A stretch of 64,000 nt of DNA, taken from assembly GCF_027364955.1 (NCBI RefSeq), contig NZ_DAHXOI010000001.1, positions 310,001 through 374,000 of the forward strand. Reading direction: 5' to 3'. Position numbers and translations under genes: made by a program. This DNA is from Ferrimicrobium sp. Its GTDB lineage: Bacteria; Actinomycetota; Acidimicrobiia; Acidimicrobiales; Acidimicrobiaceae. The stretch's first letter is position 1; each line of letters opens with the position of its first letter. Shown here piece after piece: positions 6,465 through 47,671 of this stretch. A model generated the notes under the pieces. The model saw nothing but the letters and a program-made list of their open reading frames with translations. It did not search any database and was not told where the DNA came from.

Positions 6465-7499
6465 GTGGTAGCGATGGAGATGTTGCTTGGCTACCCGGCC
6501 CTCGCCCCGAGTCAGGAAGAGTTAATCGCTGCCATGGTTCCTCCTCGCGGGTTCACAGATGCGACTTTTGATTCCTACCACCCAGACCTCCGGTTTCCTT
6601 CGCAGCAGCGAGCCAAGGAAGTGCTCCACGCGTTTACGGTCGAGCGTGCGGCGCAGGCCCACAGTCATCGATTGTGGCGACGATCGACGGTGTATCAGCC
6701 GGTGGGTTGGTATCTGGATGGCGGGTTTGGAGTGGGCAAGACTCACCTGTTGGCTGCAACGTTTCATGCCTGGTCGGGGTCGAAGTTTTATACCTCCTTC
6801 TCCGGGCTGACGAGTCTTGTTGGAGCGCTTTCTTTCGCTGGTGCGCTTCAACTCCTTCGAGGGACGAGCCTGCTGGCGATCGATGAGTTTGAGCTTGACG
6901 ATCCGGGGGACACGGTCCTCATCAGCAGACTCGCTGACGAGCTACGTATGACCGGCACCAACCTCGTGGTGACATCGAACACCTTGCCCGACCGACTCGG
7001 AGAGGGGCGTTTCGGTGCGGATGACTTTCTGCGTGAGATACAGGGGCTGGCGGAAGCGTTCAAGGTGCTTTCGATTGAGGGCGGGGATTTCCGACGGCGG
7101 GGCTTTGCGCTCGATCGCGAGATGAGTGGGGTTGGATCGTTGCCGGAGAGTACGGTGCACATCGGGCTAAGCGAACTGCTGGACCAGCTCCGCCGAGTTC
7201 ATCCGATTCGTTATCGTGGAGTCGTACAGAAGCTTGATGCGGTTGAGATACACGATGTCGTTCCCATTGCGCTCCAAAGCGATGCGTTGCACTTTTGTAG
7301 CCTTGTTGACGTTCTCTATGATCAAGGGGTCGCTGTGCGATTGCGAGGGGGTGCTGTTCGAGATCTGTTCCCGGCGAGTTTCTTGGCCGGGGGGTTCAGA
7401 CAGAAGTACGGCCGCTGCCTCTCACGCCTCTATGAGCTCGGGAGTATCGAACCTTTGTCAATGCAAAGGGATCGTGAAGGTGGCTCGCGATCCGCCTAG
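6465..7499 (+). CDS. zapE: ZapE/AFG1-like P-loop ATPase, 344 aa
   Basis: The fold is that of AFG1/ZapE ATPases: Walker A GGFGVGKT at residues 86-93, Walker B LLAIDEFELDD at 136-146, and sensor-1 TSNTLPDRL at 170-178, followed by a typical GGDFRRRGFAL segment near 210. Length is normal for the actinobacterial branch. In Escherichia coli ZapE associates with the Z-ring, and mitochondrial AFG1 helps turn over respiratory subunits; which role applies here is unknown. It is a single gene: the neighbours run the other way or are decayed. Start choice is uncertain (GTG 6465, or ATG at 6474 or 6480). The 3' end overlaps the convergent sensor kinase by 42 bases. Confidence 0.8.
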   Translation: MVAMEMLLGYPALAPSQEELIAAMVPPRGFTDATFDSYHPDLRFPSQQRAKEVLHAFTVERAAQAHSHRLWRRSTVYQPVGWYLDGGFGVGKTHLLAATFHAWSGSKFYTSFSGLTSLVGALSFAGALQLLRGTSLLAIDEFELDDPGDTVLISRLADELRMTGTNLVVTSNTLPDRLGEGRFGADDFLREIQGLAEAFKVLSIEGGDFRRRGFALDREMSGVGSLPESTVHIGLSELLDQLRRVHPIRYRGVVQKLDAVEIHDVVPIALQSDALHFCSLVDVLYDQGVAVRLRGGAVRDLFPASFLAGGFRQKYGRCLSRLYELGSIEPLSMQRDREGGSRSA

Positions 7500-39859: not shown

Positions 39860-41047
39860 TCAGTAGGTTTCAATATGGAGACGGCCCTCCTGGAGGAGCT
39901 GCACCTCCCTTGCTGGCCAATCTGGGATCGACTCGGCCAGGACATCCCGGACAGATTCCTCCATTCCCTTGACTCCGCAAAGGTAGAGGTGGGTAGCGTC
40001 GTGTCCAAGGAGTTCTGTAACCTCGACGGCTCGTTCACGCAGACCATCTTGGACATGTCGAACTGGCAGTTCGTCTTCTCTCGAGAGACAGAGCTCGATG
40101 TCGATCAGCGTACGATCAAGCTTCATCAGCGGACCAAAATACGGGAGTTCCGACCGCGTGCGAGCTCCAAAAAACAGCAGCAGCTTGCCTGGCCCAGAAG
40201 GGAGGTGACGACGGTGAAACTCGGTCATGGCACGAAAGGGAGCAGAACCGGTACCGGTACAGATCATGATCAGGTTGCTCGCTGGATCGGTTGGCATGAG
40301 GAATGTGTCGCCAAAGGGGCCAACGAGGGCTACTTGATCGCCTTTGACAAGATCGCACAGATAGTTCGAGGCGAGTCCAGGCTGACCCCTTCCATTGTTC
40401 ATCACTCGCTTGACGGTGAGCGCAAGATTGTTGTGGCCAGGTCGTTCACCATCACGAGGTGAAGAGACCGAGTAGAGTCGGAGTACCGGTCGCATCGTGT
40501 CGGGACTTGACGGGGGAAGAACACCCACACTCTGGCCCTCAAGAATCGGAAAGGCGTGGCCACCAAGGTCGAGAACGAGGTGGTGCACATCAGACTCGCT
40601 CTGTGGGTCAGTGATCCGATAGTTGCCCATGACGGTAGCGGTGATTGGGGAGTGTCGAGTGGCGACGTTGAGATGCGGAACAGTGGCGCTCTTTGGCGCG
40701 ACCGCCCTTGGCGCTCCTTGGTGGGCAACCTCCAGAAGTGCTCGGGCCTCATCGTCACCTTCTGGGACCGATTCGAAGATCTCGCCAGTGTCCTCGGGCA
40801 AGAGTTCCCAGCCCAGCTGATCATCGATCGAATGTGGCGTCGTCACGATCCGCCACGAGTCGATAGCTCCGGTTGGACAGGGGCCAAGACAATCCCCGCA
40901 GGAGGCACAGATCGCTGGGTCGACGACATAGTTATCATCGTTGTGGGTGATGGCTCCGATCGGACAAGTCTCCTCGCAGGTATTACAGCGTATGCAGACC
41001 TCTGGGTCGATCAGATGTTGTCTGATCAGACCTGTGGAGGTAATCAT
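39860..41047 (-). CDS. boxA: BoxA, ferredoxin-NADP reductase-like component of benzoyl-CoA 2,3-epoxidase, 395 aa
   Basis: BoxA passes electrons from NADPH to the oxygenase BoxB. The N-terminus is a two-cluster ferredoxin (Cys18, 21, 24, 28 and Cys47, 50, 53, 57). Then comes a linker and an FNR module with LRLYSVSSPRDGERPG for FAD and ICTGTGSAPFRAM for the pyridine nucleotide, ending in an aromatic residue (Tyr). The ATG overlaps the boxB stop as ATGA (41044-41047), so the pair is coupled. It is the last gene of the operon and is convergent with the DAHP synthase gene, with 65 bases between stops. Confidence 0.93.
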   Translation of the reverse strand: MITSTGLIRQHLIDPEVCIRCNTCEETCPIGAITHNDDNYVVDPAICASCGDCLGPCPTGAIDSWRIVTTPHSIDDQLGWELLPEDTGEIFESVPEGDDEARALLEVAHQGAPRAVAPKSATVPHLNVATRHSPITATVMGNYRITDPQSESDVHHLVLDLGGHAFPILEGQSVGVLPPSSPDTMRPVLRLYSVSSPRDGERPGHNNLALTVKRVMNNGRGQPGLASNYLCDLVKGDQVALVGPFGDTFLMPTDPASNLIMICTGTGSAPFRAMTEFHRRHLPSGPGKLLLFFGARTRSELPYFGPLMKLDRTLIDIELCLSREDELPVRHVQDGLRERAVEVTELLGHDATHLYLCGVKGMEESVRDVLAESIPDWPAREVQLLQEGRLHIETY

Positions 41048-42483
41048 GCGTGGAGGCGGACGAACTCGAAGTCCCCCGGCTTGTTGTCGATGGCAACCTT
41101 TGGTGCTGCGATCCAACGCGCATAATTGCCTGGCTCATAGACAGGTTGCATCAAGGAGTTGATGAAGGCGCGATCAGTGGCGTTTGGCAGGTGCGACACG
41201 GTCACCTGGTCGAAGGTGCGATCCGTTACCACGTTGCCCGCCGGATCGATCGGTTGGGACTGAAACTCTCCGACACGACGATGAAATCCGAGATGGGGTA
41301 GGGTGAGTTGGAATTGGATGCCTGACTTTTCAATGGCCTTGTTCCAACGCTTGACACCGTTGGCACAGTCGTTGGCGTAATCATCGCGCAGGCGTGCATT
41401 CAAGACGGTCAGCGCTGGTTCGTCGCGGGCAACGATCGCCCCACCTTGGAGTCGTAGCACCGGATAGGTCGCGCCGACGAGCCGGTGGTCATCGGTGATC
41501 TTGTGCTCATTGAATCGACCCTTCAGCCCTGAGGCGAAGGCATTCGCGGCATTCGAGGAGCCCTCTGCGCCAAAGAGATCGAGGCTCACCGAGAAGTGAA
41601 AGTTGAGATAGCGTTGCAGGGTTGGCAGATCGATGACGCCCAGGGTGCGGATTCGGTCGACATCGTAGGGGTCTTCGATACCCGCGGCCTTCATAGTGGC
41701 CAGGGTTGCATCGATCACGCGACCAATGCCACTCTCTCCGACGAACATGTGGTGCGCCTCTTCGGTCAACATGAAGCGAGTGGTTCGTGCCAAAGGATCG
41801 AAGCCTGATTGGGCCAGAGCCTCGAGTTGGTACTTGCCGTCCCGGTCAGTGAAGAAGGTGAACATGAAGAAGGAGAGCCAATCAGGGGTATCCTCGTTGA
41901 AGGCTCCGAGCATCCTCGGACGGTCCTCGTCCCCCGAGCGGCGATGCAGCAGCGCCTCAGCCTCCTCCCTGCCGTCGCGCCCAAAATACCGTTGGAGGAG
42001 ATAGACCATCGCCCATAAGTGGCGACCCTCTTCGACGTTGACCTGGAAGAGATTACGAAGATCGTAGAGAGAGGGCGCGGTGGCTCCTAGGTGACGTTGT
42101 TGCTCGACGCTGGCGGGTTCAGTGTCGCCCTGTACCACGAGGAGACGACGCAGCATGGCTCGATACTCACCAGGAACCTCTTGCCACACCGGCTCACCGA
42201 TGTGCTCACCGAAGCCGATTCTCCGCTCGGGATCACCAGGGGCCAAGAAGATACCCCAGCGATACTCCGGCATCTTGACGTATTGGAACTGCGCCCAACC
42301 TTTCGGGTCGACTCCAGTGGCGGTGCGTAGGTACACCTCTGAATCTGCGAATCCGTTAGGTCCCATCTGGTTCCACCAGTTCAAGTAGCCAGGGTGCCAC
42401 TGTTCGAGGGCTCGCTTGAGACGCTCGTCGCTTGCCAACGCGACGTTGTTGGGGATTTGTGAGTCGTAGTCGATGAGCTCCAT
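41044..42483 (-). CDS. boxB: BoxB, di-iron oxygenase component of benzoyl-CoA 2,3-epoxidase, 479 aa
   Basis: BoxB forms 2,3-epoxybenzoyl-CoA using O2 and electrons from BoxA. Helices carrying the di-iron ligands are visible as NVEEGRHLWAM (Glu, His) and LTEEAHHMFVGESG (Glu-Glu-x-His), separated by the SFFMFTFFTDRDGKYQLEAL region. Length matches BoxB (about 470-480). No transmembrane helix is present. It starts two bases after the boxC stop. Confidence 0.94.
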   Translation of the reverse strand: MELIDYDSQIPNNVALASDERLKRALEQWHPGYLNWWNQMGPNGFADSEVYLRTATGVDPKGWAQFQYVKMPEYRWGIFLAPGDPERRIGFGEHIGEPVWQEVPGEYRAMLRRLLVVQGDTEPASVEQQRHLGATAPSLYDLRNLFQVNVEEGRHLWAMVYLLQRYFGRDGREEAEALLHRRSGDEDRPRMLGAFNEDTPDWLSFFMFTFFTDRDGKYQLEALAQSGFDPLARTTRFMLTEEAHHMFVGESGIGRVIDATLATMKAAGIEDPYDVDRIRTLGVIDLPTLQRYLNFHFSVSLDLFGAEGSSNAANAFASGLKGRFNEHKITDDHRLVGATYPVLRLQGGAIVARDEPALTVLNARLRDDYANDCANGVKRWNKAIEKSGIQFQLTLPHLGFHRRVGEFQSQPIDPAGNVVTDRTFDQVTVSHLPNATDRAFINSLMQPVYEPGNYARWIAAPKVAIDNKPGDFEFVRLHA

Positions 42484-42485
42484 AG

Positions 42486-44096
42486 TTAGATCCTTTCTCG
42501 TTGGAAGTTGGTGGTAAGCCCGGTACCATACCGTTGCAGCGCTCCTTCAGGTCCGACGGCATTCGGACGATTGAAGACCCAGTTTTGCCACGCGCTGAGG
42601 CGTCCAAAGATTTTGGTCGCCATGCTTTCCGGACCGGCAAAACGCAGGTTCGCCTCCATGGCAGTGAGCGCATCCGGTGAGAAGGCGTTGCGCCCGTCAA
42701 GGGCGAGGCGTAGCTCATCCTCCCAATCGTATGCATCTGGCGTGAAGGTGACCAGACCCTTGTCTTGAGCGGCGTTCGCATCGAGCGGTTGGTTGATGAG
42801 TGGTTCCAGTGCGCGAAGTTGTTCAGGGTGACCCCAAAAGCGGGTGGCGAGTCGTGAGAGTCCGTTCATCATTGGGAAGGCCTCGAAGTTGAGGTGGTTC
42901 AGAACGAGTCCAGTCTCCCCATTGTCGAGGAAGTATGAGCGATCTGAGGCAAAGATAAGTTCCGCCAAAGGCCCCGCAAAGCAGCTGTCCCCATCAATCG
43001 AAGACATGATGGATCGAGAGGTCAGGTCGAGGCGAGCAAGGGTCCGCTGCCAGAGGGCGAGACCTTCGTCGACAATCCACTCGCCGCTCCACTGCAAGAG
43101 GAGTTCGCAATAGCGCTGGGCGAGAGCAAGATCTCCGCGGCTCTTGATAAGGAGCGTTCCAACTGTTGCTTCGTTGAAGCGTAGGTGACAGAGAAGGTCG
43201 TTAAGTTCTCGCGCTGTTGCGATCAACCATGAGGCATCGCCTTGGGCGAGGAGCTCGGCGGAGGAGGCCGGAAGCTCTGTTGGTCCGAGGATCTCGATGG
43301 CCACGACGCCGTTGTTCCGGTCGATGTCAGCTTGGAGGTGACCATACCTGATTGTATCGTCAGTGAGCTCGCGGTCGATGTCGTTCAAGGTGATGCCGGG
43401 TCCCGGTGGTGGGTCGGTACGTTTGCGGGAGGTGACGAGTTCGTCGAGGAGTCGATCGAGGCCGGAACGTGGTACCAAATGGTCGACCAGCTGCCAATTG
43501 AGAGCTCGTTGACCGCTGATACCCTCTTCCAGGGTGCAGAAGTAATCGGCGCGATCACGGCGTAGATGGCGTTTGTCAGTCAGCCGCGTCAGCCCACCCG
43601 TCCCGGGAAGCACTGCGAGCAGTGCAACCTCTGGCAGCGAGACAGATGCCGATCCGTCATCGACGAGTACGATGGTGTCACAGCTCAACGCCAGTTCATA
43701 ACCACCTCCAGCCGCGGTGCCTTCGACCACTGCGATGAAATGGGCAGGAGCCCCTTCCATAAAGAGGCGCGTTTCGTTAGTGAACTTACAGAAGTTGACT
43801 TTGTGTTGGTGGGTCGCCCCGGCCAGCATGCCGATGTTGGCTCCTGCACAGAAGACGCGATCCTTCCCTGAGCGGACCAGCACCGTGGTGATCTGGGGGT
43901 AGGAGAGTCGTAGTCGCTCCAGGGCGTCGGCGAGCTCGATATCAACCCCCAGATCGTACGAGTTCATTTTCAGCTGGTAGCCGGTACCGATCGTCTCGTG
44001 CTCATCGACATCAAGGATGAGCTCTGCGCTCTGGTCGCCGAGTTTGAGCGTCCAATGGTGATAACGATCAGGGTTCGTGCGTAGGTCAATCATCAT
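42486..44096 (-). CDS. boxC: BoxC, 2,3-epoxybenzoyl-CoA dihydrolase, 536 aa
   Basis: BoxC hydrolyses the epoxide ring to 3,4-dehydroadipyl-CoA semialdehyde and formate. It is a long crotonase-family protein with the oxyanion loop FCAGANIGML (about 83-92) and EGTAAGGGYELALSCD (about 126-141), plus a second crotonase-like half typical of BoxC (length about 540-560). The start ATG-ATG at 44096 has AGGAGG at good spacing. The 57-base gap before it holds TGCA motifs like those in front of the ligase gene. Confidence 0.94.
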   Translation of the reverse strand: MMIDLRTNPDRYHHWTLKLGDQSAELILDVDEHETIGTGYQLKMNSYDLGVDIELADALERLRLSYPQITTVLVRSGKDRVFCAGANIGMLAGATHQHKVNFCKFTNETRLFMEGAPAHFIAVVEGTAAGGGYELALSCDTIVLVDDGSASVSLPEVALLAVLPGTGGLTRLTDKRHLRRDRADYFCTLEEGISGQRALNWQLVDHLVPRSGLDRLLDELVTSRKRTDPPPGPGITLNDIDRELTDDTIRYGHLQADIDRNNGVVAIEILGPTELPASSAELLAQGDASWLIATARELNDLLCHLRFNEATVGTLLIKSRGDLALAQRYCELLLQWSGEWIVDEGLALWQRTLARLDLTSRSIMSSIDGDSCFAGPLAELIFASDRSYFLDNGETGLVLNHLNFEAFPMMNGLSRLATRFWGHPEQLRALEPLINQPLDANAAQDKGLVTFTPDAYDWEDELRLALDGRNAFSPDALTAMEANLRFAGPESMATKIFGRLSAWQNWVFNRPNAVGPEGALQRYGTGLTTNFQRERI

Positions 44097-44101
44097 TCCT
44101 C

Positions 44102-44157
44102 CTATGATGCAGTATAGTTATATTTCCAGCGCCAAATACGGTAATATAGTGCATTAT
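44102..44157 (-). promoter_or_regulatory. Second TGCA-box region, before boxC
   Basis: TGCAGTATAGT at 44108-44118 equals, on the opposite strand, an 11-base part of the operator before the ligase gene (46648-46658), and TGCATTATC at 44150-44158 is identical to 46688-46696. Minus-strand TATATT (44143-44148) is a possible -10 element. The first copy is directly next to the boxC ribosome site. Such sharing suggests control of an internal promoter by BoxR. Confidence 0.6.
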
Positions 44158-44972
44158 CCTGGTGGCGACCCGGTGAGGTTGGGGACGAGGATACCCCGCT
44201 GGGCGAGGAAGCATTCGATCGCGTCCAAAACCCGGTCGGTGTGGGTGAGATGAGGGGAGTGTTTGGCCTCTCGGATGAGGGTGAGGGTCGTCTCGGCAAC
44301 GCGTGATGCGATGAGTTCTAGCTGCATGCTTGTCCCATATTCGTCCTCGGTTCCCTGCAGGGCGAGAACGGGCACGTCGATGGTGTCAAGTCGATCAAGG
44401 ATCGAAAAAGTGCGAAAGTCCGGGTCCAGCCAGGCATCGTTCCAACCCCAGAAGGCACTCGAGAGATTTGAGCGATGATATCGCGCAAGCTTTGCGGCAA
44501 GGGCGCCGGCAGTAAACTGCTCCTTCGCCCCCTGGATTGCTGCGATGGCGATCGCTTCAACTACCACATGTGGTGCGATCACGACGACGCTGGTGAGGAG
44601 CGGATCTTGCTGGGCACCCGCATAGGCCAGGGCGATCGATGCACCGTCGGAGTGTCCGAGGAGTACCCTTGGCCCGCCGCAGAGCGCTTGGAGCAGATCG
44701 GGTAGTACTTCATCCGCCTCGCGTTGCATGTAGTCAAGCGAGCGAGGGAGATCGATGGTGCTCGACCCCCCGTAACCAGCCCTAGAGTAGGCGATGACGG
44801 GCAGCCGAAGTCGGTCTGCCAGTCGCTGGGGGAAGTCTTTCCACATCTCCACGCACCCGAGACCCTCGTGAAGCAGGAAGATGGTTGGACCATCACGGGA
44901 CTCGAGGTTGGGCGACCAGTGTGCCACCTCTAGGGTGGCGGCGAGATGCTGGATCGTGGATGTCGTCCTCAT
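44154..44972 (-). CDS. Alpha/beta hydrolase of the box operon, 272 aa
   Basis: The alpha/beta hydrolase fold is shown by HEGLG (oxyanion), the nucleophile elbow GHSDGAS with Ser at about 108, an Asp in the LALQGTEDEYG segment, and the final His in AKHSPHLTH. Hydrolases of this kind occur in several box clusters; they may remove dead-end CoA thioesters or lactones, but the role is not established. The ATG is fused with the stop of the ligase gene (ATGA, 44969-44972). It is followed by the TGCA gap and boxC. Confidence 0.85.
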   Translation of the reverse strand: MRTTSTIQHLAATLEVAHWSPNLESRDGPTIFLLHEGLGCVEMWKDFPQRLADRLRLPVIAYSRAGYGGSSTIDLPRSLDYMQREADEVLPDLLQALCGGPRVLLGHSDGASIALAYAGAQQDPLLTSVVVIAPHVVVEAIAIAAIQGAKEQFTAGALAAKLARYHRSNLSSAFWGWNDAWLDPDFRTFSILDRLDTIDVPVLALQGTEDEYGTSMQLELIASRVAETTLTLIREAKHSPHLTHTDRVLDAIECFLAQRGILVPNLTGSPPG

Positions 44973-46549
44973 GACTTTCGGAGTTTGAACCGTTGGATCT
45001 TACCGGTAGCAGTTTTGGGGAGTTCTTCGACGAATTCGATCCATCGAGGGTACTTCCAGGGGGCGAGTTGCTGCTTGACAAAGCCTTGGAGGTCGGAGAC
45101 GAGCGTATCCGTGGGTTGGACATCCGAACGGGCAACGACGTAGGCCTTAGGCTTGATCAGATCATCGACATCCCTCCACGGGACGACAGCGGCCTCAAGA
45201 ACGCTTGGATGGGCGATCAATGCTGACTCCACCTCAAAGGGCGAGACCCAGTTGCCACTGACCTTCATCATGTCGTCGGATCGACCTGCATAGTAATAGT
45301 AACCATCGTCATCGCGAAGGTACTTGTCGCCGGTATGGGTCCAATGCCCTCGGAAGGTGGCGAGAGACTTGTCGCGCTGATTCCAGTAGCCATCAGCGGC
45401 GGAGTAACCACGCACTACTAGTTCGCCGATGGTACCTGAGGTGGTGATCTCTAACCCCTCGTCGTCGATGAGGCGAGCGTCATACCCGGGAACAGGAACG
45501 CCGCTGGAACCATAGCGGATACCGCCTGGACGGTTAGCCAGAAAAATATGGAGCATCTCGGTCGACCCGAGGCCGTCGATAATCGCCGCACCGGTGAGTT
45601 CTTCAAAGCGGCGCCCGATCTCCGGGGGTAACGCTTCACCGGCTGAGGTACAGATCCGGAGCCCAACATCGGCAAGTTCTCGAGCGCGGGGGCTTGCGAG
45701 TAAGGAGGCAAAGAGTGTCGGCACGCCGCAGAAGACCGATGCGTGGCTCGTCTGCAGGAGATCGATGACGGAGTCCGGGGTCGGCCGTTCGTTGAGGTAG
45801 GCCACGCTTGCCCCAACGCCGAAGGGAAAGGTCAGCCCGTTGCCAAGGCCATAGGCGAAAAAGAGTTTGGCGGCAGAGAAGACCGTGTCAGTGGGGGTAA
45901 GGCCGAGCACTTGTTGGGCGAAACAGTTGATGGTGACTGCCACATTGCGGTGGAGGTGTCGAACGCCTTTTGGGCGTCCGGTCGATCCTGATGAGTACAG
46001 CCAGAAGGCGACCTCGTCGGCGACGGTGGCGATCGGTAGTTGATACGGCGAAGCCGCTAGGATGCGGGCTCCGATCCCCGGTCCGTGCAGTCCGTTGTCA
46101 CGCTCGATCCACTTGACGCGTCGACACCCGGCCGCCGCCCGTTCGATCTTTTGCGCACCCTGGGTGTGGGCGACGATGGCTTTGACTCTGGAGTCTTCGA
46201 TGATGTAGCGAAAGTCCTCTTCGGCTAGGAGCGGGTTGAGAGGGATGGGAACGATGCCCGCTCGAATGGCCCCGAGGAAGAGGGCAGGGAAGAGAATGGT
46301 GTCGCCGATGACCAAGAGAAGTCGATCCTCAGGCTCAAGGCCGAGCTCCATCAATGCGGTGGCAGAACGGAGCACGAGATCCTCAACCTCTCGGTAGGAG
46401 TAGGTGCCGTCCGCATCCGTGACCGCTGTGCGACCAAGCGGTTGTGATCGAGCGGTAGCGAGCAGACTCTCTGCAATGTTGTAGCTCTTTGGCAGGTTTG
46501 CGAGCCACTCTTCGATCGCGATCGTCTCTTGTTGTTGGACCTGCATCAT
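44969..46549 (-). CDS. bclA: Benzoate-CoA ligase, 526 aa
   Basis: An acyl-adenylate-forming enzyme with the P-loop YSSGSTGRPKGVRHLH, the LGSTEMLHIF A5 motif typical of benzoate/aryl-CoA ligases, GRSDDMMKVSGNWVSP in the A8 hinge and the catalytic Lys in the terminal PKTATGKIQRF. Length and the STEMLHIF signature are those of the box/anaerobic benzoate ligases rather than fatty-acyl ligases. The ATG at 46549 (or the next codon) follows GGGGAG; the 24 codons before it are noise. It is the first gene of the operon after the regulator. Confidence 0.9.
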   Translation of the reverse strand: MMQVQQQETIAIEEWLANLPKSYNIAESLLATARSQPLGRTAVTDADGTYSYREVEDLVLRSATALMELGLEPEDRLLLVIGDTILFPALFLGAIRAGIVPIPLNPLLAEEDFRYIIEDSRVKAIVAHTQGAQKIERAAAGCRRVKWIERDNGLHGPGIGARILAASPYQLPIATVADEVAFWLYSSGSTGRPKGVRHLHRNVAVTINCFAQQVLGLTPTDTVFSAAKLFFAYGLGNGLTFPFGVGASVAYLNERPTPDSVIDLLQTSHASVFCGVPTLFASLLASPRARELADVGLRICTSAGEALPPEIGRRFEELTGAAIIDGLGSTEMLHIFLANRPGGIRYGSSGVPVPGYDARLIDDEGLEITTSGTIGELVVRGYSAADGYWNQRDKSLATFRGHWTHTGDKYLRDDDGYYYYAGRSDDMMKVSGNWVSPFEVESALIAHPSVLEAAVVPWRDVDDLIKPKAYVVARSDVQPTDTLVSDLQGFVKQQLAPWKYPRWIEFVEELPKTATGKIQRFKLRKS

Positions 46550-46630
46550 CACTCCCCCTTCATGGGCACGCCTGCACCGGTCATCGATGACTCGTTCTCG
46601 GTCGGCATGCCATACAGGCACCTCTTTAGG

Positions 46631-46764
46631 TGCATCGGCACACTTGCACTATACTGCAAAATATGCGGGGAAAGTCCCGCAAGGACATGCATTATCATGC
46701 AGCCCTCGGCCGCGTGATCAATGACCGTGCAGCCAATGACGGTGCAGCCAATGACGGTGCAGCC
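46631..46764 (-). promoter_or_regulatory. TGCA-rich operator/promoter region of the box operon, with 15-bp triple repeat
   Basis: Eight TGCA tetramers occur in 131 bases (46631, 46645, 46655, 46688, 46698, 46728, 46743, 46758). The central TGCACTATACTGCA at 46645-46658 is a near-palindrome and its minus strand contains TATAGT, a possible -10. The last three TGCA lie in perfect-to-one-mismatch 15-base tandem repeats at 46720-46734, 46735-46749 and 46750-46764. A GCGGG/CCCGC inverted repeat is at 46664-46681. BzdR/BoxR proteins are known to bind TGCA-containing sites, so this is the expected control region. Confidence 0.7.
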
Positions 46765-46795
46765 ATCTGTCGATGGCGCAGGTGGCGTTGGACCG

Positions 46796-47671
46796 CTACC
46801 CGTTCACCTCTTGTGGGGGCTCATCGGCTTCGGGGCGGTCGCCAACGCTGAGATACTTCGCAATCAGCCCTTCGAGTTCCGCGAGGGAGGTTTCGACGCT
46901 CCTCTGCGAAGTGGATAGATGGAGCTCGGCCGCTTGATAGAAAGGGGTCCGTTCGTACAGAATAGTCCTGAGCTCTTCCATGGCTCGATCGGAGCCGTGC
47001 ATTGGCCGCAGGTCACCCTGGGCAATGACTCGTTGCATGTGTTCCTCTGGCGTTGTCGAGAGCCAAACGGTGGTCCAATGACGACGAAGTAGCCGGTAGG
47101 CCGGTTGATTTGTGACCAGTCCGCCTCCAATCTCTACGACGATTTGACCTTTGCTATCCTCGACGAGTTGTTGCAGGGTCTCGAGTTCAAGTCTGCGAAA
47201 AGCGGCATCACCCCCAAGAGAGAAGAGCTCGTCGAGGGGCATCTGGGTTCGTTCGGTGATCAGCTCCGTTAGGCGATAGAAAGGCCAACCGAGTTGAGCA
47301 GCTAGTAGGTGGCCTAGAGTTGTCTTTCCGGCTCCGCGTAGCCCGATCAGAGCGATGCCACGGCGCTCGGAGACGACGCGCTCCTTGAGCTTTTCGATGA
47401 GCGATTCCGCCTGGGTTGGCGTGGCGAGTGCGGCGACATCGATCAACTCGATGAGGCCGAGGTCGAGGGCTTGGGCCAGTCGGGTCAGTACGGTGAGCGA
47501 GGGGTTCGCACGACCAGTCTCGACCTGGGCTAGGTAGCGTTCCGAGAGCTGGGCTCGGCATGCGAGATCGGACCGAGACAGCCCTCGAAGGCTACGCTCC
47601 CGGCGCAGCGTGTGAGCCAGCTGGGCAACGATCCGTTCGTACTCAGAGCCTTGGGGATGGGAAAGGTCCAC
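46796..47671 (-). CDS. boxR: BoxR/BzdR-family regulator, HTH plus shikimate-kinase-like domain, 291 aa
   Basis: The N-terminus is an XRE-type helix-turn-helix (about 14-70, with LSERYLAQVETGRANPS). A linker leads to a shikimate-kinase-like domain with Walker A GLRGAGKT (110-117) and a GGDAAFRRLELETL segment. In Azoarcus this architecture (BzdR, BoxR) represses benzoate genes and is released by benzoyl-CoA. The GTG start at 47671 has TAGGTG upstream. It is transcribed toward the ligase; the 246-base gap holds the operator-like repeats. The Pro/Glu-rich end extends a little beyond the domain. Confidence 0.92.
   Translation of the reverse strand: MDLSHPQGSEYERIVAQLAHTLRRERSLRGLSRSDLACRAQLSERYLAQVETGRANPSLTVLTRLAQALDLGLIELIDVAALATPTQAESLIEKLKERVVSERRGIALIGLRGAGKTTLGHLLAAQLGWPFYRLTELITERTQMPLDELFSLGGDAAFRRLELETLQQLVEDSKGQIVVEIGGGLVTNQPAYRLLRRHWTTVWLSTTPEEHMQRVIAQGDLRPMHGSDRAMEELRTILYERTPFYQAAELHLSTSQRSVETSLAELEGLIAKYLSVGDRPEADEPPQEVNG

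Follow-up and report, generated by a model that had tools for sequence, protein, structure and literature searches.

A predicted BoxR operator and a proposed internal promoter before boxC in a one-directional box operon of Ferrimicrobium

Organization of the box operon and its two gaps

The stretch analyzed here (the window) comprises 64,000 nucleotides of a Ferrimicrobium sp. contig (NZ_DAHXOI010000001.1) and contains a box operon at 39860–47671, in which the short gap before boxC is predicted to hold a second operator for the repressor BoxR. All genes lie in the same direction on the minus strand, in the order major facilitator superfamily transporter, boxR, benzoate-coenzyme A (CoA) ligase, alpha/beta hydrolase, boxC, boxB, and boxA. 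The boxR gene (46796–47671) encodes a cognate repressor of the BoxR/BzdR type, which combines an XRE helix-turn-helix domain with a shikimate-kinase-like domain (NF006015, 271.8 bits; cut-off 204). Its helix-turn-helix stretch SERYLAQ(V/L)E, which we take to be the recognition helix, is common, with small changes, to proteobacterial BoxR proteins. The ligase (44969–46621; TIGR02262, 658.7 bits; cut-off 375.25), boxB (41044–42483; TIGR03225, 849.6 bits; cut-off 499.1), and boxA (39860–41116; TIGR03224, 516.7 bits; cut-off 459.2) score above their family cut-offs. The start codon of boxA is uncertain, and its longest frame overlaps boxB. The boxC gene (42486–44096; TIGR03222, 684.5 bits) falls slightly below its cut-off of 712.3, and the enol-lactonase-like hydrolase (44154–44972; TIGR02427, 49.5 bits) is also below cut-off.

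Two gaps, 231 base pairs (bp) together, are relevant to regulation: the boxR–ligase gap (46622–46795), which holds the main operator, and the hydrolase–boxC gap (44097–44153). The original prediction, which placed a BoxR-controlled internal promoter in the latter, gave its length of 57 bp correctly and set its coordinates (44102–44158) off by 5. The boxC ribosome binding site that it mentioned is confirmed as AGGAGG at 44103–44098 on the minus strand.

For comparison, we used the seven genomes of the genus in our collection. BoxB was found in six of them, including that of the window, and the gap was read in these six (the window genome, G152, G148, G151, G149, and G150; G150/L022 and G149/L001 were each counted once). 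The remaining genome, G153 (83% complete), was left out because it gave no boxB match and only distant boxC-like matches. The GGAG of the ribosome binding site is invariant in the six genomes. The boxC frame begins with ATGATG (44091–44096), of which the first ATG is found in none of the five relatives (GTG in G151) and the second in all five; the true start is therefore probably at 44093.

The main operator consists of two sites on the minus strand, O1 (TGCATGATAATGCA, 46688–46701) and O2 (TGCAGTATAGTGCA, 46645–46658), which are 43 bp apart in all six genomes. O1 is a complete TGCA-N6-TGCA in each genome. O2 is complete in five and reads GGCATTATTGTGCA in G151; it overlaps a candidate −10 hexamer, TATAGT. 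Upstream of O1 (46721–46765, minus strand) are three tandem 15-bp units, TGGCTGCACCGTCAT, with TGCA words, the third unit having one change; G152 has a degenerate form of this repeat, and by eye the other four relatives lack it. A GC-rich inverted repeat between O1 and O2 (46664–46681, minus strand), called terminator-like, is only partly present in G152 and, by eye, not kept otherwise.

Two conserved blocks before boxC

In the accessible parts of PMC6449761, BoxR and BzdR are described as binding TGCA repeats, with a footprinting consensus of ATGCACTATAGTGCAT, and their sites as almost always multiple and mainly 3–5 DNA turns apart. The OR2 and OR3 regions of the bzd promoter have the form TGCA(N6)TGCA, according to the available text of PMC6678401.

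Two blocks related to this motif are located in the hydrolase–boxC gap, about 2.5 kb from the main operator. The first, Oi1 (44140–44153, minus strand), reads TGCA-CTATAT-TACC in the window and TGyA-nTATwT-TGCm in the relatives, and lies at a fixed distance from boxC in all six genomes. The TGCA-N6-TGCA is complete in G148 and G149, with seven of the eight half-site bases retained in G152, G151, and G150 and six of eight in the window. The second, Oi2 (44108–44121, minus strand), reads ATAA-CTATAC-TGCA and is one half-site only, as TGCA is missing from its left half in all six genomes. Its TATACTGCA portion (44116–44108, minus strand) is invariant throughout. In every genome, 42 bp separate the TGCA of Oi2 from the first Oi1 half-site (which is TGCA in five and TGTA in G151), and the centre-to-centre distance of the two blocks is always 32 bp, or approximately three DNA turns. 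A spacing of multiple sites by whole turns, as in known BoxR/BzdR operators, is thus found at both the internal and the main operator in all six genomes.

The pattern TGyAnTATwTT, together with the downstream TATACTGCA, is retained at a fixed distance from boxC in the six genomes. When the sequences were aligned with TATACTGCA as the anchor, invariant ungapped columns accounted for 9 of 14 positions in Oi1 and 9 of 9 in TATACTGCA, with 3 of 23 in the spacer and 0 of 23 upstream. The mean pairwise identities were 0.82 and 1.0 for the two blocks, compared with 0.43 for the spacer and 0.38 for the 20 bp upstream, and an independent MAFFT alignment recovered the same conserved blocks. In the relatives, between about 64 and 160 bp separate the end of the hydrolase match from boxC, with the element constant, so the element has been kept and the gap has not.

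The internal site was originally noticed through two words shared with the main operator. The 11-base word TGCAGTATAGT is present in both gaps as described (44108–44118, plus strand; 46658–46648, minus strand), and a search of the assembly (3.08 Mb, 84 contigs, 97.55% complete) found it exactly twice, once in each gap. The copy before boxC is inverted relative to that of the main operator, which is nearly palindromic. With one mismatch, the word occurs at 11 places, compared with 22 in the reversed control. The 9-base word TGCATTATC is also shared (44150–44158 and 46688–46696, both plus strand), but only four of its nine bases are inside the hydrolase–boxC gap; the other five are the TAA stop of the hydrolase and two bases of the preceding Gly codon. 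As evidence for an operator, this word is weak: it has 10 copies in the genome (control, 4), overlaps the hydrolase stop, and is unconserved. It is largely a coincidence. The conserved site, TGCA-CTATAT-TACC, runs in the opposite direction and reads into the gap, and ATAATGCA is not retained in G148, G151, and G149 in the MAFFT alignment.

Dinucleotide shuffling of the two gaps gave a shared word of at least 11 bases in 17 of 5000 pairs (0.34%). The window was also divided into 2037 overlapping stretches of 62 bp, the hydrolase–boxC gap included, and 12 of these had at least 11 bases in common with the main gap; the word match within the window is therefore only moderate evidence. The core TGCASTATA occurs 10 times in the assembly (reversed control, 13), four of them in the two gaps, where two copies overlap within the palindromic main operator. 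The words are thus not enriched genome-wide over reversed controls; what stands out is their placement and, decisively, their conservation. At four mismatches to the consensus, five sites were found in the window, three of them in the box gaps, with 1.05 expected. Taken together, the motif, its location, its conservation and fixed spacing, and the presence of BoxR, all of which are read from the sequence, strongly support the prediction of a BoxR operator before boxC.

Operator-type sites at other box loci and the probable origin of the operon

We examined 23 box loci outside the genus, scoring a site when it was within 150 bp of boxC with at most four mismatches. Such a site was found in four of six loci with a linked boxR (L003, L007, L009, and L023), in three of six with a hydrolase gene before boxC (L016, L019, and L025), and in none of the remaining 11; the frequency in random stretches of the scanned loci was 28 of 1680. 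Among the hydrolase-type loci, the genomes of L016 and L019 encode BoxR proteins (41% and 40% identical across the two domains), and those of L005 and L025 yielded no BoxR, only shikimate-kinase-like matches near 30%. Like the window, the alphaproteobacterial loci L003 and L023 (after boxR) and L016, L019, and L025 (after the hydrolase gene) have TGCAnTATA-type sites just before boxC, and L019 has two such cores 31 bp apart, as counted by eye, compared with 32 bp here. Their sequences have otherwise diverged from that of the window. At the gammaproteobacterial locus L020, where the order is ligase, hydrolase, and boxC, a different palindrome, ATTATGTGATATAACACATAAT, precedes boxC (6845–6997), possibly for a BoxR variant or another regulator.

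No such arrangement was found at the box loci examined from closer relatives. In genera of the same family (L100–L104, one of which spans 2.3 kb), there was no boxR or ligase match and no site within four mismatches; L104 has one TGCA-N6-TGCA, which is without a TATA core. Among 19 boxC loci from the same order outside the genus (L026–L041, L043, L045, and L046; L044 was excluded because its gene start is missing), an exact TGCA-N6-TGCA within 250 bp was found only in L038, where it lies at −227 and is also without a TATA core. In a BoxB tree of 55 rows, from which duplicate loci and BoxB matches shorter than 380 residues were excluded, the genus groups with Proteobacteria in a 13-row set that includes the alphaproteobacterial hydrolase–boxC loci (support 100/99), apart from 29 rows of its own order (100/97). 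Of 395 genomes sampled from the class, two gave a BoxR-family match with an E-value no higher than 1e-40, and both belong to this genus. On the basis of the tree and this distribution of BoxR, the operon and its control sites were probably acquired together by horizontal transfer from Proteobacteria. The internal site would then be the counterpart of the operator that preceded boxC in the donor lineage.

The control sites resemble those of betaproteobacterial box clusters, which, as far as the accessible parts of PMC6449761 describe them, share the TGCA-N6-TGCA palindrome of the consensus, several sites spaced by turns, and a boxR gene within the cluster. In all Betaproteobacteria studied there, however, the BoxR-regulated genes form divergent clusters, with boxR–boxCBA facing away from the ligase side, whereas here the operon is one-directional, the boxC site lies inside it, and one of the two internal sites has a single half. 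The Azoarcus bzd PN promoter, in the available text of PMC6678401, likewise has TGCA(N6)TGCA sites and three operator regions (OR1–OR3), one region covering the promoter and the others upstream; it differs in that it serves an anaerobic pathway, its three regions span −146 to +31 of one promoter, and the activator AcpR is also required. Searches of the partly accessible literature on boxR/boxCBA, box internal promoters, and the Acidimicrobial box pathway listed no report of an internal BoxR site in a box operon whose genes all run one way. The novelty would be modest, as the type of site and the regulator are already known and the location inside such an operon is what is new.

Genome-wide, TGCA-N6-TGCA occurs at 43 places, compared with 21 in the reversed control. 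A wider BoxR regulon was not supported by two of the three closest-looking outside regions (L105–L107): L105 and L106 do not look benzoate-related as judged from reading their translations, with no family search. In L106, the site is inside a reading frame. L105 has two sites 30 bp apart (2028–2071), in a repeat-rich stretch downstream of merR-like and dnaJ-like reading frames.

The proposed internal promoter and alternative explanations

Two candidate −10 hexamers for an internal boxCBA promoter are present in the gap on the minus strand. TATACT (P2, 44111–44116), which overlaps Oi2, is invariant in the six genomes, has the form of a sigma-70-type −10 hexamer, and is directly followed by the conserved half-operator, with the ribosome site shortly downstream. 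The alternative, TATATT (P1, 44148–44143), lies inside Oi1, is the minus-strand TATATT of the original prediction, and reads TATATT in four genomes and TATTTT in two. A P1 promoter would give a leader of about 40 bases, which resembles the layout of the main promoter with TATAGT inside O2. Transcription would be predicted to start near 44103–44106 from P2 or near 44136 from P1, and the sequence does not distinguish between them. A candidate antisense promoter (TTTCCA-16-TATAGT, 44123–44150, plus strand) was rejected, since it is at chance level (one found, 0.3 expected) and its second hexamer is unconserved (AATAGT in G149 and AATAAT in G151).

We infer BoxR binding, release by benzoyl-CoA, and promoter activity as follows. 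In the absence of benzoyl-CoA, BoxR dimers would cooperatively occupy Oi1 and Oi2 and exclude RNA polymerase from the internal promoter. Once the ligase produces benzoyl-CoA, BoxR would be released, assuming that it behaves as in Azoarcus, where BoxR is reported to be a repressor released by benzoyl-CoA (accessible part of PMC4424350). The boxCBA genes would then be transcribed both from the internal promoter and by read-through from the main one. Such separate control would allow the ligase, and hence the inducer benzoyl-CoA, to be made before the oxygenase or at a different level. The finding would also add to the known range of the BoxR operator code an actinobacterial genus whose operon and control sites both seem to come from Proteobacteria, and it suggests a route from a divergent to a one-directional cluster in which boxCBA keeps its own switch. 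We consider this reading, a second BoxR operator that controls an internal boxCBA promoter, to be fairly probable.

Several observations weigh against it. In the window, both internal sites are degenerate, with four and five mismatches to the consensus; only the two main operators are an exact TGCA-N6-TGCA, and the internal sites are absent both from the 43 exact places in the genome and from the three places within three mismatches of the consensus (control, 2). At five mismatches, the window has 11 sites with 9.55 expected, and Oi2 by itself is therefore at chance level by consensus score. The Fisher value for the classes of invariant columns (1.9e-9) is descriptive only, because the classes were chosen after the alignment and the anchor itself is one of them. 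G152 is closely related to the window, and the pre-boxC site of G151 misses the four-mismatch score that the other four relatives reach. Outside the genus, no site was found at four mismatches in L004 and L021, which have boxR, or in L005, L012, and L020, which have the hydrolase before boxC. As for the promoter, a consensus −35 is lacking for P1 as well as P2: the best match to TTGACA 15–19 bp before TATACT has one to four of six bases in the six genomes (the main promoter is no better, with two to three). A promoter scanner made no minus-strand sigma-70 call at 43900–44400, nor one at the main promoter, and a start from P2 would fall almost on the ribosome site, leaving a very short leader. 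Because of the missing −35 and scanner call, the internal site is given here as a proposed promoter and not classified as sigma-70. Of the original claim, the operator part is thus strongly supported, with boxR in the operon, a fit to the published motif, and conserved position, spacing, and key bases in all six genomes; the promoter part is plausible.

The lack of a −35 in the gap, and the separation of Oi1, the better operator, from TATACT, would also suit a true BoxR operator that is not a promoter and acts as an auxiliary site, either looping to the main promoter 2.5 kb upstream to strengthen its repression or blocking read-through. Looping alone, however, does not require the second block to combine a −10-like hexamer with a half-site before the ribosome site, and a site of this kind is the operator beside boxC at L003 and L023, where no gene separates boxR from boxC. 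We regard an auxiliary role as a credible though unlikely explanation. Phage lambda CI joins OL and OR. BoxR oligomers might similarly join the main and internal operators in one repression loop, by which the ligase and ring-opening genes would be switched together despite separate promoters; to this we give only a small chance.

The site could also be a relic, if boxC once directly followed boxR with its own operator and a ligase–hydrolase block was then inserted, leaving the operator functionless. At L003, L007, L009, and L023, boxR is indeed directly before boxC with the ligase on the other strand, an order that matches the published divergent clusters (PMC6449761, in the part available), and none of the other five genomes has an Oi1 as degenerate as that of the window. 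Against this, the blocks and their spacing are retained while the flanks have drifted, and we find a relic quite improbable. The blocks form a partly inverted repeat and are able to pair in the window RNA, as a hairpin acting on mRNA processing or boxC translation would require, but the fold is no better than that of shuffled sequences (z +0.87; 168 of 200 fold at least as well), the six-genome consensus fold has neither this stem nor a compensatory pair, and 43900–46900 contains no Rfam match at the gathering threshold, all of which makes a hairpin very improbable. Chance repetition of AT-rich words, which the equally matching window stretches and the lack of genome-wide enrichment might favor, is scarcely credible, given the confinement of the exact 11-mer to these two gaps and the conservation of the element at fixed spacing in six of six genomes; the repetition is real.
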